Shown: positions 10,813 through 30,149 of the stretch, in pieces
Numbering within the stretch: position 1 is the first letter of the stretch
Layout: every line of letters starts with the position of its first letter
Source: Dehalococcoidia bacterium
GTDB taxonomy: Bacteria > Chloroflexota > Dehalococcoidia > Lucifugimonadales > UBA2985
Assembly (NCBI GenBank): GCA_015661155.1
Contig: JACVQK010000022.1
Span: forward strand, 5,935 to 51,035
Direction: 5' to 3'
DNA length: 45,101 bases
Position numbers and translations under genes: made by a program
Notes under the pieces: model-generated
What the model was told of the DNA's origin: nothing
The model's input: the letters and a program-made list of their open reading frames with translations, nothing else
Database searches by the model: none

Positions 10813-11949
10813 ATGACCCAAATGACGACCCTTCCGGTGCAGACCGTCACCAGCGGCGATCAGCTTGTCGCCGCCGTGGAGGCCATGCATCGAGAGCCTG
10901 CCATCGCGTTGGATACCGAGTCCAACAGCTTCTTCCACTATCCAGAGCAGCTATGTCTGGTGCAGATTGCGACGAGCCGCGCCGTGGTGATCGTCGATCC
11001 CTTGGCCTTCAGCGAAGTGCTGCCTTTGAAGGGGCTGCTGGCCAGCCCTGGCGTCCAGAAGATACTTCATGCTGCTGATTACGATGTGCGGAGCCTGGAT
11101 CGGGCCTGGGGGTTCCGTGTGTCCAACATCTACGACACCAACCTGGCGGCGCGGTTCGCAGGAATGATGCAGTTGGGACTGGCGGCTCTTGCCGAGGAGC
11201 TGCTCGGCGTCAAGCTGAACAAGGAGAAACGCCTGCAGCGATCGGACTGGGGCCGAAGGCCGTTGAGCCGAGAGGCGCGGGAGTATGCCGCCGCTGACGT
11301 CCGCCACCTGATGGCCCTCCGCGATGAGCTGGACAAGCGGCTGCGGCTGCTAGGCCGCGCCGGGTGGGTCGCCGAGGAGTTCACGCTTCTGGAGAGAATC
11401 CGCTATGAGCCACCTGATACCGAGCTGGCATTCCTTGGCGTCAAGGGGAGCCGGGACCTCAGCCCGCGCGGGCTGGCCGTCCTGCGCGCCCTGTTCGCCT
11501 TTCGAGACCTGGAAGCGCTGCGCCAGGGCAGGCCCCACTTCCGCATCCTGGGGGATGCCACCCTCGTCTATCTCGCCGCCCAGCCAGAGGCTGATTTGGC
11601 CCAAACGCCCGGCCTTGGTACTGCGGGCCTCCAACGGTTTGGCCCATCGCTCCAACGGGCGATCCAGGAGGGAATAAGCGCACCGCCGTTCCACAGGCCG
11701 CCCCCAGCGCAGCGGCGGGACAGGCCAACCCAGGAGCAGATGGCCCGCCTGCAAATGCTGAAGGCCTGGCGTTCCGCCCTGGGGGAGCGGCTGTCCATGG
11801 ACCCATCCCTCCTATGGCCTACGGTCAGCCTGGAACGCCTTGCCGGGCAGACGAGTACGCTGGACGCCGAGCTGGCAGCACCTGAGGTGCGCGCATGGCA
11901 GCTCCAGGAGTTTGGCGCGTCCCTTCGAACGCTCCTGGTCACAACCTGA
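10813..11949 (+). CDS. rnd: Ribonuclease D family 3'-5' exonuclease with HRDC domain
   Basis: ALDTESNSFFHYPEQLCLVQIAT (DEDD exonuclease), LNKEKRLQRSDWGRRPLSREAREYAAADVRHL; C-terminal HRDC-like region. Confidence 0.92.
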   Translation: MTQMTTLPVQTVTSGDQLVAAVEAMHREPAIALDTESNSFFHYPEQLCLVQIATSRAVVIVDPLAFSEVLPLKGLLASPGVQKILHAADYDVRSLDRAWGFRVSNIYDTNLAARFAGMMQLGLAALAEELLGVKLNKEKRLQRSDWGRRPLSREAREYAAADVRHLMALRDELDKRLRLLGRAGWVAEEFTLLERIRYEPPDTELAFLGVKGSRDLSPRGLAVLRALFAFRDLEALRQGRPHFRILGDATLVYLAAQPEADLAQTPGLGTAGLQRFGPSLQRAIQEGISAPPFHRPPPAQRRDRPTQEQMARLQMLKAWRSALGERLSMDPSLLWPTVSLERLAGQTSTLDAELAAPEVRAWQLQEFGASLRTLLVTT

Positions 11950-12040
11950 GCAGGCCCGCCGGATGCAAGTCCTTGCTGAAATGCCCCGCCGGACATATCA
12001 TGGGGACAAGCCAAGAAGCAGCCAAGAGACGGGAGCTGTC

Positions 12041-14800
12041 GTGGCTACAACAGGTATCCTGTGCATAACCTTCGCTTCCGGACCCATCATCCTGAGGACG
12101 CCAAGAGGCGATCTCAGGCAAACCGAGCTTCCCCATTGGCCTTCAGACGAGGAGTTCTCCCTGGACATCGCCTGCCTGGCTCTGGACACCGACTCCTCCG
12201 GTGTGAGCGATGAGGTCAAGCAGAGGCTGGTCGAGCACCTTGCGCAGGGTGGTGACAAAACAGGAATAGCTCGTCGTCTCGGGAAGCGTCTCTTTGGCCT
12301 TCTCTTTTCCAGCCAGGAGTTCATCGATGCCTATCGCCTGGCGCGAGATGCCAGCGAAGGGCTGCGTCTGGTCCTGGAGTTCGCCCTGAAACCACAAGAG
12401 CCAGACCCGGTGGTCTCCCGGTGGGCGGCGCTCCCCTGGGAGTACCTGCTCGACCCAAGTGTCCCGGAGAGAGGGGAGTTCCTGGCGCTGAGGCCACACT
12501 TCACCATGCTCCGCCGGCTGAGCGGTGGTGGAGGGGCGAGGCCCGCCACGGTCTCGGCGCCCCTGAAGGTGCTTGCCACCCTGGCAGAGCCGTGGGACCA
12601 GCTCCGCTACGGACGAGAGGAGGCCATGAGGTCCCTGGAGGAGGGTCTCTCCGGGGGGCAGGTCGAGGTGCGACTGGAGCGAGAGCCCACCTTTCCCGCG
12701 CTGATACGTGCCCTGGGAGAGGATAAACCCCACGTGGTGCACGTGGTGGCCCACGGCAGCTACCATCCCCAGGGAGGAGGGGCCTTGGCCCTTGAGAACG
12801 AGTATGGCGGAACGAACCACGTCCAGGCCCAGGAGTTTGCGCGCCAGCTTGCAGGCTCTGGCGTCAGGCTGGTGGTATTGGGTGCCTGCTTGTCTGGAGC
12901 GGGGGATGTGGCCGGTGCCTCTCAAGGCACGGCGCAGGCGCTCCTCAGGGCGGGTGTCCCCGCGGTGGTGGCTATGCAGTACTCGGTGCCCGTGATAACG
13001 GCGCACCGCTTCTCAAAAGAGCTCTACCGTGCCCTGTCCAGAGGCACTCCTCTGGACGAAGCGGTGGGGATAGCCCGGCGGGTGCTGAGCGGAGACAGGT
13101 CTCTACCATCCCTGGACTGGGCGATACCCGTCCTCTACGTGCAGGGCGACCCCTGGAGCCTCGCGCGTGACGAGCAGAGGAGGGCCACTTCGCCAGCGGT
13201 GGAGAGGGCCGGGCCTCCTGGGAATCTCCCCTCGGCGTCCCATCTCAGGCCAACCGAGCTTGTTGGCCGTGGAGACGACATGGTGCGCCTGGCCACTGCG
13301 CTGAGGGAACCGCTGGAGCGACGCCGCTTCGTGACTGCCACCGGCATCGGGGGCATTGGCAAGACGGCCGCGACGGTCGAGAGCGCCTTCTGGCACTGGG
13401 ATAGGGACTACTTCCCGGACGGTGTCTTCTGGGTTTCAGCCAAGGAAGTGCCCTACACCCAGCTCCTCAGCGCCGTAGGCGCGGCCCTGGGTATCCAGGA
13501 GTTCGACCGGGTCAGCCAGCAGGTCCAGGAGCAGGTCGTCCTGGAACACCTGGAGCGCCGTCGGCTACTCCTGGTGGTGGATAACGTGGATGGGCTGAGG
13601 GATGATGGCTCCTTCAGGCACCTGCTGAGCAGCATAAGCCCCAGTCCGGCAGGGCGGCTTCTGCTGACCTGCCGGAGGAGGCTCAACCTTGATGGGGAGG
13701 AGGAGGTGCTCCTATTGCGCCTGGCCCTCGGCCCGGCGGTCTTCCTCTTCTCTCGCCACTGGGGGTTGAAGGCGCTCACGGATGCACAGATGCGAGACGT
13801 GACCGCAATCTGCGGCCCAGAGCTGCTGGACGGCCACCCCCTGGCCATAGAGATTGCGGCATCCCTGGCCCGAAAGGAGCGGTTGAGTGACCTGACCTCG
13901 CTACAGCAGAGGCTGTGGGTGAACATGGCCAGGACCCTTGATGACCCGAGGACGCCCGGGGAGGAGAGGAGCATCGTGGCGACGTTGAACACGTCCTACG
14001 ACGCCCTGGGGAGCACGGCAGGGGCGATACTGACCCGTCTCTCTGTCTTTGAGGCTCCGCCAAGGGAGGATGGTGTGGAGGCCATGGCCGGGGACATCGC
14101 GGACTGGAGGCAGGGACTCACGGAGCTGCTGGAGCACCACCTGCTGGACAGAGGCGAGGCGACGGCCGATGATGGAGCCACACTGGACGTATTCACCATG
14201 CACTCTGTGGTCAGGGGATATGCCATGGGGAAGGTGGAGGATGCGGCTCCCCTCCATCAGAGGGCAGGGCGGTTTCTGGCAGGCTCTCGGTATGCCCAGG
14301 AGGTGGTGGAGGCGTGGCAAGAGGTGATGGAAGCTGCCCAGAGGATAGAAAACTATCTGGACATCAGGGGCATGTGGTCCCAGGACGAGCTGGTGCTACA
14401 GGCGGCCCTGGGGGCTGCGAGGGCCCTGGGGAACCGCGAGAGAGAAGGGTGGGTGCTGGGAGAGCTGGGCAGCAACCACCTGAGGATGGGGGATGCCCGG
14501 GGAGCCATCGACTACTACCAGCAGGCCCTGGCCATCTCCAGGGAGATAGGCGACAGGAGGGGGGAAGGAACCGCCCTTGGGAACCTGGGCAACGCCTACG
14601 GAGACCTTGGGGAGCATGAGACTGCCCTGAAGTACCTGGTGCAGAGCCTTGGCATACTGGGCGAGATAGAGAGTCCCGATGCGAAGACAGTGGGCCGTAA
14701 CATTGCGAGGCTCAGAGAGAGCATTGGGGAGGGGCAGTTCAGGGCCTTGCTGGAAAAGGTGGTCGGGGAGCCTGGCACAACGGATTCTCCCGGCGTGTAG
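12041..14800 (+). CDS. CHAT protease - NB-ARC/STAND NTPase - TPR protein (NLR-like)
   Basis: HVVHVVAHGSYH and LVVLGACLSGAGD (CHAT His/Cys), TATGIGGIGKTAA (P-loop), RRLLLVVDNVDG (Walker B), LLDGHPLAIEIAASLA (GxP motif), TPRs EGWVLGELGSNHLRMGDARGAIDYYQQALAI. Start set to GTG 12041; the ORF extends upstream to 11840. Confidence 0.88.
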   Translation: MATTGILCITFASGPIILRTPRGDLRQTELPHWPSDEEFSLDIACLALDTDSSGVSDEVKQRLVEHLAQGGDKTGIARRLGKRLFGLLFSSQEFIDAYRLARDASEGLRLVLEFALKPQEPDPVVSRWAALPWEYLLDPSVPERGEFLALRPHFTMLRRLSGGGGARPATVSAPLKVLATLAEPWDQLRYGREEAMRSLEEGLSGGQVEVRLEREPTFPALIRALGEDKPHVVHVVAHGSYHPQGGGALALENEYGGTNHVQAQEFARQLAGSGVRLVVLGACLSGAGDVAGASQGTAQALLRAGVPAVVAMQYSVPVITAHRFSKELYRALSRGTPLDEAVGIARRVLSGDRSLPSLDWAIPVLYVQGDPWSLARDEQRRATSPAVERAGPPGNLPSASHLRPTELVGRGDDMVRLATALREPLERRRFVTATGIGGIGKTAATVESAFWHWDRDYFPDGVFWVSAKEVPYTQLLSAVGAALGIQEFDRVSQQVQEQVVLEHLERRRLLLVVDNVDGLRDDGSFRHLLSSISPSPAGRLLLTCRRRLNLDGEEEVLLLRLALGPAVFLFSRHWGLKALTDAQMRDVTAICGPELLDGHPLAIEIAASLARKERLSDLTSLQQRLWVNMARTLDDPRTPGEERSIVATLNTSYDALGSTAGAILTRLSVFEAPPREDGVEAMAGDIADWRQGLTELLEHHLLDRGEATADDGATLDVFTMHSVVRGYAMGKVEDAAPLHQRAGRFLAGSRYAQEVVEAWQEVMEAAQRIENYLDIRGMWSQDELVLQAALGAARALGNREREGWVLGELGSNHLRMGDARGAIDYYQQALAISREIGDRRGEGTALGNLGNAYGDLGEHETALKYLVQSLGILGEIESPDAKTVGRNIARLRESIGEGQFRALLEKVVGEPGTTDSPGV

Positions 14801-16472: not shown

Positions 16473-16925
16473 CTACCGTTCAGATGCCTGGCGTGCCGCG
16501 CCCAGCAACCGCTGCAACCTTCCGTCAAGGTGCTTTGGCCAGGTCTTGTGCAAGACCTGGCCAATCTGTGTCCTCGCGTTGGCCAGCGCCTGGTCCGCCT
16601 GGGCCTGGGTGATCTTCCCCTTTTGCACAGCGTGTTGCAGGCGGTCGCTCACCCTCTGCACCAGGTCCTGCTCAATGGCCGCGGGAGCGACGCCATGCGC
16701 CTGGGCCACGGCGGCAATAGACGAGCCGCCAAGCTCCTTCAGCAACTCCCTGGGCTTGATTCCGATGTCTTTGGCAATGAGCGCAAACACGGCGAGCTTG
16801 GTTCGCGGCAAAAGCTTGAGGTCGGAGGGCAGGCTCGCATCCCCAGCAAAGGCCGTGGCCGTACCCAAGAGCAGCAGCGCTCCTACCACAGAGACAACCG
16901 CTATCAACAACCGGTTCTTTGCCAT
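16473..16925 (-). CDS. Secreted hypothetical protein (signal peptide, helical)
   Basis: MAKNRLLIAVVSVVGALLLLGTATAFAGDASLPSDLK...; start trimmed to the ATG at 16925. Confidence 0.65.
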   Translation of the reverse strand: MAKNRLLIAVVSVVGALLLLGTATAFAGDASLPSDLKLLPRTKLAVFALIAKDIGIKPRELLKELGGSSIAAVAQAHGVAPAAIEQDLVQRVSDRLQHAVQKGKITQAQADQALANARTQIGQVLHKTWPKHLDGRLQRLLGAARQASER

Positions 16926-17059
16926 AATCGCGCTCCTTGCATGTCCCGCCCGCACGTCGGATAATGACCCCATTATAACACCAATTCCTGACGTGCAATC
17001 CAGCATTGCTCTCACTGAGGGGATACGCCGTGTCATCTTATGCTCTTAGAGGTGAAGGG

Positions 17060-28543: not shown

Positions 28544-28906
28544 GTTGATAGGCAGGCCTGTAAGCCGAGTTCTGTATCCCGACATAGTCGGGACGGCGAC
28601 CATCTATCTGGGACTCCGATTGCTCGAAGCCTCTAGCGGCCAACCCGGGGACGGGACGGGCTCTCCCTTTGTCCCCCTATTTGGCCTTGCTCCGGGTGGG
28701 GTTTACCCTGCCTCCGATGTCACCACCGGAGCGGTGAGCTCTTACCTCACCATTTCACCCTTACCCCGATAAATCGGGGCGGTGTAATTTCTGTGGCACT
28801 TTCCGTCGGGTTACCCCGCCTGGCCGTTAGCCAGCACCCTGCCCAGTGGAGCTCGGACTTTCCTCCCCCGCGCAAGCGGAAGCGACCGCCCAGCCTGCCT
28901 ATCAAC
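28544..28906 (-). ncRNA. rnpB: RNase P RNA (bacterial class A)
   Basis: Minus strand: GGGGGAGGAAAGTCCGAGCTCC ... ACAGAAATTACACCGCC ... GGTAAGGGTGAAATGGTGAGGTAAGAGCTCACC ... GAACTCGGCTTACAGGCCTGCCTATCAAC; P1 ends GTTGATAGGCAGGC / GCCTGCCTATCAAC pair. Confidence 0.95.
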
Positions 28907-28952: not shown

Positions 28953-30149
28953 CTACTCCTTCTCTTTCAGGGTCAGGAGCACAGAGTCATCCCCCACCGA
29001 GACGTGGGAGACCAGGGCACGGAGAAGGTAGCCCAGGGTGTCCCTATCCAGCGAGTCCCAGCCCTGTAGAAGGAATTCACCTCCGCGAGCCATGGCCTCT
29101 AACCCAGGGTCAGGGGACAACAGGCTGTCCTCAAGAGCAGACCTGTGGGCACCCAACTCCTCAAAGATGAGGCGCAGGCGTCCCACGGAGATGCTGCCGG
29201 CAGCGGTCGCCTCCACGGCTTTCAGGAACCGACGCTCCAGAAGTTTTACCTTCCCCTCGGCGTCAGAGCGGCGCTGAGAGGCAGCCTCATCCAGGCGAAG
29301 CTCTATCCTTCCCTGCTCCAGGGCCTCCCAGGCCTGATCCAGGACAGCTCGCTCCAGGACTTCAGAGCGCCAGGTATGGTAGCGGCACATACCCTGGTTG
29401 GTCCGAGACTGGCACTGGTAGTAGCGATACTGGCCGACCACCCGGGAGCCGTCCTTGTGGCTCCATCCCTGGCGTCGGCTCACCCCTATCATCCTGTTGC
29501 CGCAGGAGGAGCAGAAGGCCAGGCCTGATAGGAGAAACGACTCCCCAGGATGAGGTGTTCGCGGCGTTCTCCTCTGGGTCATCTTCTTCTGAGCCAGGTT
29601 GAACTCCGCGGAGTCGATGATGGCCTGGTGGCTACGGGGAACCCTCATGCCAAAACGGGCGTACGTACCAAGATAGGCACGGTTGCGAAGAACGTCTCTA
29701 ACCGTGACTATGCTCCATCCCCCCCCGCTTCGAGTGGGGACCTCTCGCTCATTCAGGTGGCGCACTATGAGCCTCATGCCCATGTCATCTTGAGTGTACA
29801 GGTTGAATATCCGTTGCACCGTGGCGGTCTCTTCGGATACCACCTCCAGTTTGCCATCCGGGCCAATCCTGTATCCAAAGGGGGGTTTGCCCAATCCCTC
29901 TCCCCGCATGGCCCTGGATAGCATGGCCTTCTTGATCCGCTCCCCTTTGGCTCCGCTCCCACTACCCCAGCGCTTCAGAGCTTGCAGCAAGGGATCAGGC
30001 ATCTCCTCATCGAAACAGAGGACCCTGGCTCCCAGGGCGTCCAGCTCCAGGATTCGGCCCACGGAGGACTCCAGGGTATGCCCCAGATGCTGGGGGCCTG
30101 CGACAGCGACCAGAAACTCCCTCTGCGATTGCCCCAGGTACTCCACCAT
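28953..30149 (-). CDS. Recombinase-domain/zinc-ribbon protein of the serine recombinase family, without a recognisable catalytic resolvase domain
   Basis: RAMRGEGLGKPPFGYRIGPDG...VQRIFNLYTQDDMGMRLIVRHLNEREVPTRSGGGWSIVTVRDVLRNRAYLGTYARFG (Recombinase domain), FLLSGLAFCSSCGNRM...YYQCQSRTNQG zinc ribbon; no YxRVS or DRLSR motif. Confidence 0.8.
   Translation of the reverse strand: MVEYLGQSQREFLVAVAGPQHLGHTLESSVGRILELDALGARVLCFDEEMPDPLLQALKRWGSGSGAKGERIKKAMLSRAMRGEGLGKPPFGYRIGPDGKLEVVSEETATVQRIFNLYTQDDMGMRLIVRHLNEREVPTRSGGGWSIVTVRDVLRNRAYLGTYARFGMRVPRSHQAIIDSAEFNLAQKKMTQRRTPRTPHPGESFLLSGLAFCSSCGNRMIGVSRRQGWSHKDGSRVVGQYRYYQCQSRTNQGMCRYHTWRSEVLERAVLDQAWEALEQGRIELRLDEAASQRRSDAEGKVKLLERRFLKAVEATAAGSISVGRLRLIFEELGAHRSALEDSLLSPDPGLEAMARGGEFLLQGWDSLDRDTLGYLLRALVSHVSVGDDSVLLTLKEKE

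Follow-up and report, generated by a model that had tools for sequence, protein, structure and literature searches.

A CHAT-NB-ARC-TPR protein of NLR-like architecture in an uncultured Chloroflexota lineage

Among defence systems, Borvo and type III-E CRISPR are documented to include CHAT proteases (PMC10952713), and a CHAT protease of fungal origin that bears TPRs is the activator of a gasdermin (PMC12881547). According to PMC9729208, the TPR-CHAT protein of the type III-E Craspase is caspase-like and functions as part of a complex with gRAMP, the CRISPR effector. In the EACC1-caspase two-gene conflict system (System 4), an N-terminal caspase-superfamily peptidase is followed by variable C-terminal modules, among which are STAND NTPases, and a joint action of STAND and caspase-superfamily modules in the conflict systems of prokaryotes has been proposed; the same study defines the conflict-system domain Trypco2 (PMC7159879).

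The window analysed here, that is, the whole stretch of 45,101 nucleotides, encodes a protein in which a CHAT protease domain, an NB-ARC NTPase and a TPR array are united. This architecture is not new, since it is also seen in cyanobacteria, in archaea, in Zixibacteria and in other Chloroflexota; the window protein adds a divergent member, from an uncultured Chloroflexota lineage, to a class of suspected immune or cell-death proteins.

The gene, its domains and its predicted structure

The features of the locus are collected in Table 1. The gene reads as 919 codons and a stop, in keeping with the single protein of about 920 residues of the preliminary description, and its frame is free of internal stops. 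The same frame stays open upstream to a TTG codon at 11840; as this codon lies inside the RNase D gene and would make the two genes overlap, the GTG is regarded as the better start. A foreign composition was rejected, since the GC content and the GC3 (0.77) resemble those of the neighbouring genes. A collapsed TPR array was likewise rejected because no DNA-level tandem repeat is left at the TPR site, although the contig of the closest relative breaks in one. The scans for promoters, terminators and leader RNAs at the locus gave nothing informative.

Table 1. Features of the window and partner genes at related loci (window positions; L numbers denote related loci, with their own positions)
Feature	Coordinates	Strand	Basis or remark
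CHAT-NB-ARC-TPR gene	12041..14800	+	ORF, 919 aa, GTG start
GGGAG, Shine-Dalgarno-like	12031..12035	+	5 nt ahead of GTG start, read from sequence
N-terminal region, residues 1-129	12041..12427	+	alignments and model
CHAT caspase-like protease domain, residues 130-364	12428..13132	+	Pfam PF12770; fold match to SAVED-CHAT 8tl0
Predicted catalytic His238	12752..12754	+	kept in 81/82 aligned CHAT segments, remaining row a gap
Predicted catalytic Cys283	12887..12889	+	kept in 81/82 aligned CHAT segments, remaining row Tyr
Linker CHAT/NB-ARC, residues 376-390	13166..13210	+	low confidence, pLDDT below 50
NB-ARC/STAND NTPase, about residues 405-722	13253..14206	+	motifs, Pfam, Apaf-1 1z6t profile match E 7.3e-24, fold matches
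P-loop GIGGIGKT, residues 435-442	13343..13366	+	motif
MHD-like MHS, residues 720-722	14198..14206	+	motif; LHP at that place in closest relative
TPR array, residues 781-908	14381..14764	+	TPR_12 804-872; about three helical hairpins and a cap helix in model
RNase D-HRDC gene	10813..11949	+	neighbour only, ends 91 nt upstream, co-directional
Membrane-protein gene, L050	13324-13779		
Membrane-protein gene, L051	6059-6487		
Membrane-protein gene, L052	4842-5324		
Membrane-protein gene, L053	4992-5474		
Membrane-protein gene, L054	13397-13909		
Membrane-protein gene, L055	10622-11095		
Membrane-protein gene, L057	3676-4167		
Membrane-protein gene, L062	9179-9688		
Membrane-protein gene, L128	2881-3333		
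Trypco2 gene, L066	9341-9718		directly upstream of CHAT gene
Trypco2 gene, L107	9306-9707		directly upstream of CHAT gene

The Pfam CHAT profile matches with E 8.2e-30 and 104.7 bits, the curated cut-off being 24. The His and the Cys which the preliminary description had assigned to this domain lie in the motifs VAHGSYH (His238) and GACLSG (Cys283), and an alignment of the window protein with 81 CHAT relatives shows the two residues together in 80 of the 82 rows, the exceptions being L062, with Tyr for Cys, and L128, a truncated record. Relatives from several bacterial phyla and from archaea keep the dyad, which is what selection for catalysis would lead one to expect. Over residues 414-545 the Pfam NB-ARC match (E 4.6e-5) stays marginally below the cut-off of 23.5 in the protein scan, with 23.3 bits, and passes it at 26 bits in the whole-genome scan. 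The P-loop, Walker B (LLLVVDN, 509-515) and GHPLA (598-602) motifs already reported were recovered, and to these are added an RNBS-B-like LLLTCR (540-545) and the MHS motif, which was absent from the earlier list. The TPR_12 match has an E of 7.6e-18; the repeats number two by sequence, as had been noted, and about three helical hairpins (781-895) in the model.

The AlphaFold2 model, built from 42 sequences, has a mean pLDDT of 82.6 and is weak at residues 1-10, 50-55, 376-390 and 756-779; the arrangement of the domains is uncertain because the overall pTM is 0.55. Ahead of the CHAT domain, residues 70-129 are modelled as helices and a strand, and residues 1-60 are poorly predicted. The structure prediction that the preliminary description had recommended agrees with its domain assignment: a Foldseek search against the PDB matches the NTPase to the STAND-TPR protein 6mfv, Apaf-1, CED-4, the apoptosome and plant resistosomes, and the protease to the activated SAVED-CHAT filament 8tl0. 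By sequence, the family profile finds AfsR (E 1.4e-53), Apaf-1 (at the value in Table 1) and 8tl0 (E 9.5e-23), and it also matches plant NLRs over the NTPase. By its profile match and predicted dyad the window protein belongs to the CHAT proteases, and its motifs and modelled fold designate it as an NB-ARC STAND protein. The Pfam domains and the model concur in the NLR-like architecture proposed at the outset, which is tripartite: an N-terminal effector, a central STAND module and a C-terminal repeat sensor.

Distribution, relatives and neighbouring genes

The window protein provides the sole CHAT and the sole NB-ARC matches of its own genome (1.81 Mb, 93% complete). The other four genomes in the family yielded no relative, and the 393 genomes of the class yielded one that is near full length, at 44% identity; its contig is that of L048 (P0002), the top match of the alignment scan of genome contigs and the sole relative found to be more than 40% identical. 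The gene is therefore accessory, and the core-genome conservation which, according to the preliminary description, would speak against a defence role is absent. Among 400 genomes drawn from the phylum, 28, including that of the window, match at E 1e-40 or better, none of the others being both full-length and close. Phage records gave one partial CHAT match, and plasmids partial CHAT or TPR matches only.

The closest relative, from the Chloroflexi MAG NC_groundwater_644, has the same three domains, is 41-44% identical over most of its length and shares the dyad, the P-loop and GHPLA with the window protein. It differs by a longer TPR array, whose 120-bp units, 90% identical, run off the contig end, and by its upstream neighbour on the same strand, an extracellular solute-binding protein where the window has RNase D. 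The TPR array of the window protein is short, with its three or so hairpins against more in most relatives scanned. In L003 (1-546), a TPR array of 120-bp units about 90% identical lies at a contig end, so that the repeat number in that relative is uncounted; the array may turn over quickly.

A scan of genome contigs with the single protein found no relatives, whereas the alignment scan confirmed 436, of which 80, mostly matched via the CHAT domain, were kept. All nine of the long relatives scanned with Pfam contain CHAT, TPR and a STAND-type P-loop; they come from Chloroflexota, Cyanobacteria, the archaea Methanosarcina and ANME-1, and Zixibacteria. The window protein and L048 form a pair (support 100/99) in a tree built from 19 long sequences, apart from the archaeal and Zixibacteria group; the deeper placement is unsure because of long branches.

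Several relatives are accompanied by small genes. An unnamed protein of 142-170 aa, which contains two or three hydrophobic segments and belongs to no Pfam family, is encoded beside CHAT-NB-ARC-TPR genes of Methanosarcina, ANME-1, Zixibacteria and one IMG/VR viral contig: it lies 163-194 bp downstream on the same strand in eight loci (L050 to L055, L062 and L128) and 1,066 bp downstream in L057, whose CHAT frame is shorter. The genome of L058 holds a further copy next to a TPR-array end at a contig edge. This membrane protein is a candidate CHAT substrate or membrane effector. Its fold search gave no significant match, and the appearance of NINJ1, at E 0.65 from a low-confidence model, is not counted as evidence. 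No homologue was found in the window, its genome or 59 related genomes, a negative supported by the detection of the protein, with the same alignment, in seven of eight genomes of the carrier clade. Two loci of cyanobacteria have a Trypco2 gene whose end lies 13-24 bp upstream of the CHAT-NB-ARC-TPR gene; the domain is named for its co-occurrence with trypsin-like peptidases, yet here it stands beside a CHAT-NB-ARC-TPR gene. In two Anaerolineae (L089 9137-9658 and L125 9229-9672), a conserved unnamed gene encoding 147-173 aa, with no Pfam match, ends about 80 bp upstream of a CHAT-NTPase-TPR gene. None of these three partners adjoins the window gene, and Trypco2 was not found in its genome.

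The preliminary description had placed the end of an RNase D-HRDC gene 91 nt upstream and had seen the CHAT gene as standing alone, with no gasdermin beside it; both statements hold, the immediate neighbours being RNase D and, on the 3' side, a convergent MFS transporter. The surrounding region encodes CoA-transferases, NAD kinase, RmuC, NADH:quinone oxidoreductase-type subunits, ribosomal protein L19 and PriA, among other proteins of this sort. The neighbours being mostly metabolic, transport and housekeeping genes, a defence island was rejected, and no Cas match was found among the neighbouring genes scanned. The adjacency of RNase D, on the other hand, is local: the co-location in homologues for which a check had been suggested was not seen in 80 homologous loci, which amount to 1.14 Mb (best tblastn E 0.36). 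The four sister genomes gave no full-length RNase D; their matches are stretches of about 110 residues within frames of over 930 aa, most likely DNA polymerase I; for this reason RNase D, too, looks accessory in the family.

Elsewhere in the window, a serine-recombinase-like protein (28953-30149, minus strand) has Recombinase and zinc-ribbon domains without a Pfam match to the resolvase catalytic domain and is possibly truncated or degenerate; the RNase P RNA gene (28545-28901, minus strand) adjoins it. A 187-aa protein (16473-17036, minus strand) with an apparent signal-peptide-like N-terminus has no Pfam, NCBIfam or PADLOC match.

A proposed proteolytic switch and its alternatives

The model we favour, with moderate confidence, is that of a single-gene proteolytic switch of the NLR/apoptosome type, most plausibly serving antiviral or conflict defence. 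In the resting state, the NB-ARC would hold ADP and the CHAT protease would be idle. The binding of a protein, peptide or stress-derived ligand to the C-terminal TPRs would lead to the exchange of ADP for ATP, controlled by the P-loop and the MHD-like His, and to oligomerisation. The clustering would activate the CHAT protease (His238/Cys283) in cis, whereas the animal apoptosome recruits a separate caspase, and the protease would cleave at least one host protein whose gene lies elsewhere in the genome, resulting in dormancy or death. The domains, the motifs, the conserved dyad, the fold matches and the accessory distribution support such a switch, as do the relatives that adjoin Trypco2 or a dedicated small membrane protein and the precedents of CHAT proteases in Borvo, in type III-E CRISPR and in the activation of a fungal gasdermin. 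Against it stand the mostly metabolic and housekeeping surroundings with no adjacent substrate, adaptor or defence gene, the lack of a PADLOC call, the short TPR array and the pTM of the model.

The main rival is a regulatory, non-lethal role, in which an NTP-gated CHAT protease would serve a developmental or stress programme like the cyanobacterial CHAT protein HetF. Of the family models, HetF indeed gives a match in the CHAT region (residues 195-370), at E 1.2e-12 and well short of its cut-off. The best NCBIfam matches to the NTPase include AfsR and HaaT, STAND-TPR proteins with regulatory or biosynthetic functions, and the gene is solitary among housekeeping genes; its patchy distribution, with none of the four sister genomes carrying it, and the conflict-system domains adjoining some relatives make this role rather unlikely all the same. 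We regard as more doubtful still that the protein is one half of a split two-component conflict system whose unlinked partner would be equivalent to those of the relatives. Other clades do have a clade-specific small gene adjoining the CHAT-STAND gene, but neither Trypco2 nor a membrane-partner homologue was detected in the genome, of which about 7% is estimated to be missing.

A functional pair of RNase D and the CHAT protein, that is, a nuclease plus a protease switch, is suggested by their co-directional proximity and in that neither the CHAT gene nor a full-length RNase D was detected in the sister genomes; it is largely refuted by the 80 homologous loci and by the solute-binding protein that takes the place of RNase D in the closest relative, and we hold it to be very improbable. 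Equally improbable is that the gene is misassembled or encodes a CHAT-STAND scaffold which is decaying or has lost its catalysis: the shortness of the TPR array would fit this, and the contig break in the closest relative indicates that such arrays assemble badly, but the frame, the dyad and all NTPase motifs are intact, the GC3 is that of the neighbours and the site is devoid of a DNA-level tandem repeat.

If the proposed switch is correct, a single polypeptide of a bacterium combines an NB-ARC switch with a caspase-like protease, as a compact counterpart of the apoptosome-caspase axis. More speculatively, and we would not expect it to hold, CHAT-NB-ARC-TPR proteins might constitute an all-in-one apoptosome of prokaryotes, with a conserved core of protease and switch to which each clade adds a partner of its own. 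This partner would be the unnamed membrane effector in the archaea and the Zixibacteria and Trypco2 in the cyanobacteria; the window lineage would have none, and killing there would proceed by cleavage of a chromosomally encoded host protein. The relatives offer the more testable gain: in Methanosarcina and ANME-1, CHAT-NB-ARC-TPR and the small membrane protein constitute a conserved two-gene unit, from which a concrete candidate for the substrate of an NLR-like protease in prokaryotes would be obtained; this unit is a more novel lead than the window gene.

Comparison with known systems

PADLOC calls no defence system and gives only partial SAVED_CHAT, BovA and generic TPR similarity, none of which is to an Avs family. 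The likeness to Borvo BovA is restricted to CHAT residues 205-350 (E 3.4e-4) and is not full-length. No NACHT match appears at E 0.001, where a bNACHT protein is concerned, the NTPase being NB-ARC instead. The window protein shares the CHAT protease fold and sequence with SAVED-CHAT (8tl0), which carries a nucleotide-messenger SAVED sensor in contrast to the NB-ARC-TPR of the window protein; Pfam finds no SAVED domain in the latter, and no CRISPR or cyclic-nucleotide gene was seen beside it. Neither a gasdermin, as in the bacterial gasdermin operons, nor a small partner, as in the related CHAT-STAND loci, is encoded by the adjacent genes. The EACC1 system, which likewise has an N-terminal caspase-superfamily peptidase and, among its C-terminal modules, STAND NTPases, has a single-TM EACC1 protein, whereas the gene upstream of the CHAT gene in the window encodes RNase D. 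TPR and CHAT are found in one protein in Craspase TPR-CHAT as well, which is not known to have a STAND NTPase.

In conclusion, the window protein is by the features tested not a member of the Avs, bNACHT, Borvo, SAVED-CHAT or gasdermin-operon groups, and it is NLR-like in its architecture. It has the NTPase fold and motifs in common with the Apaf-1/CED-4 apoptosome and the plant resistosomes, with TPRs in the place of their WD40 or LRR repeats, and its caspase-like protease is fused in cis, whereas the apoptosome recruits its protease and the plant NLRs are without one.
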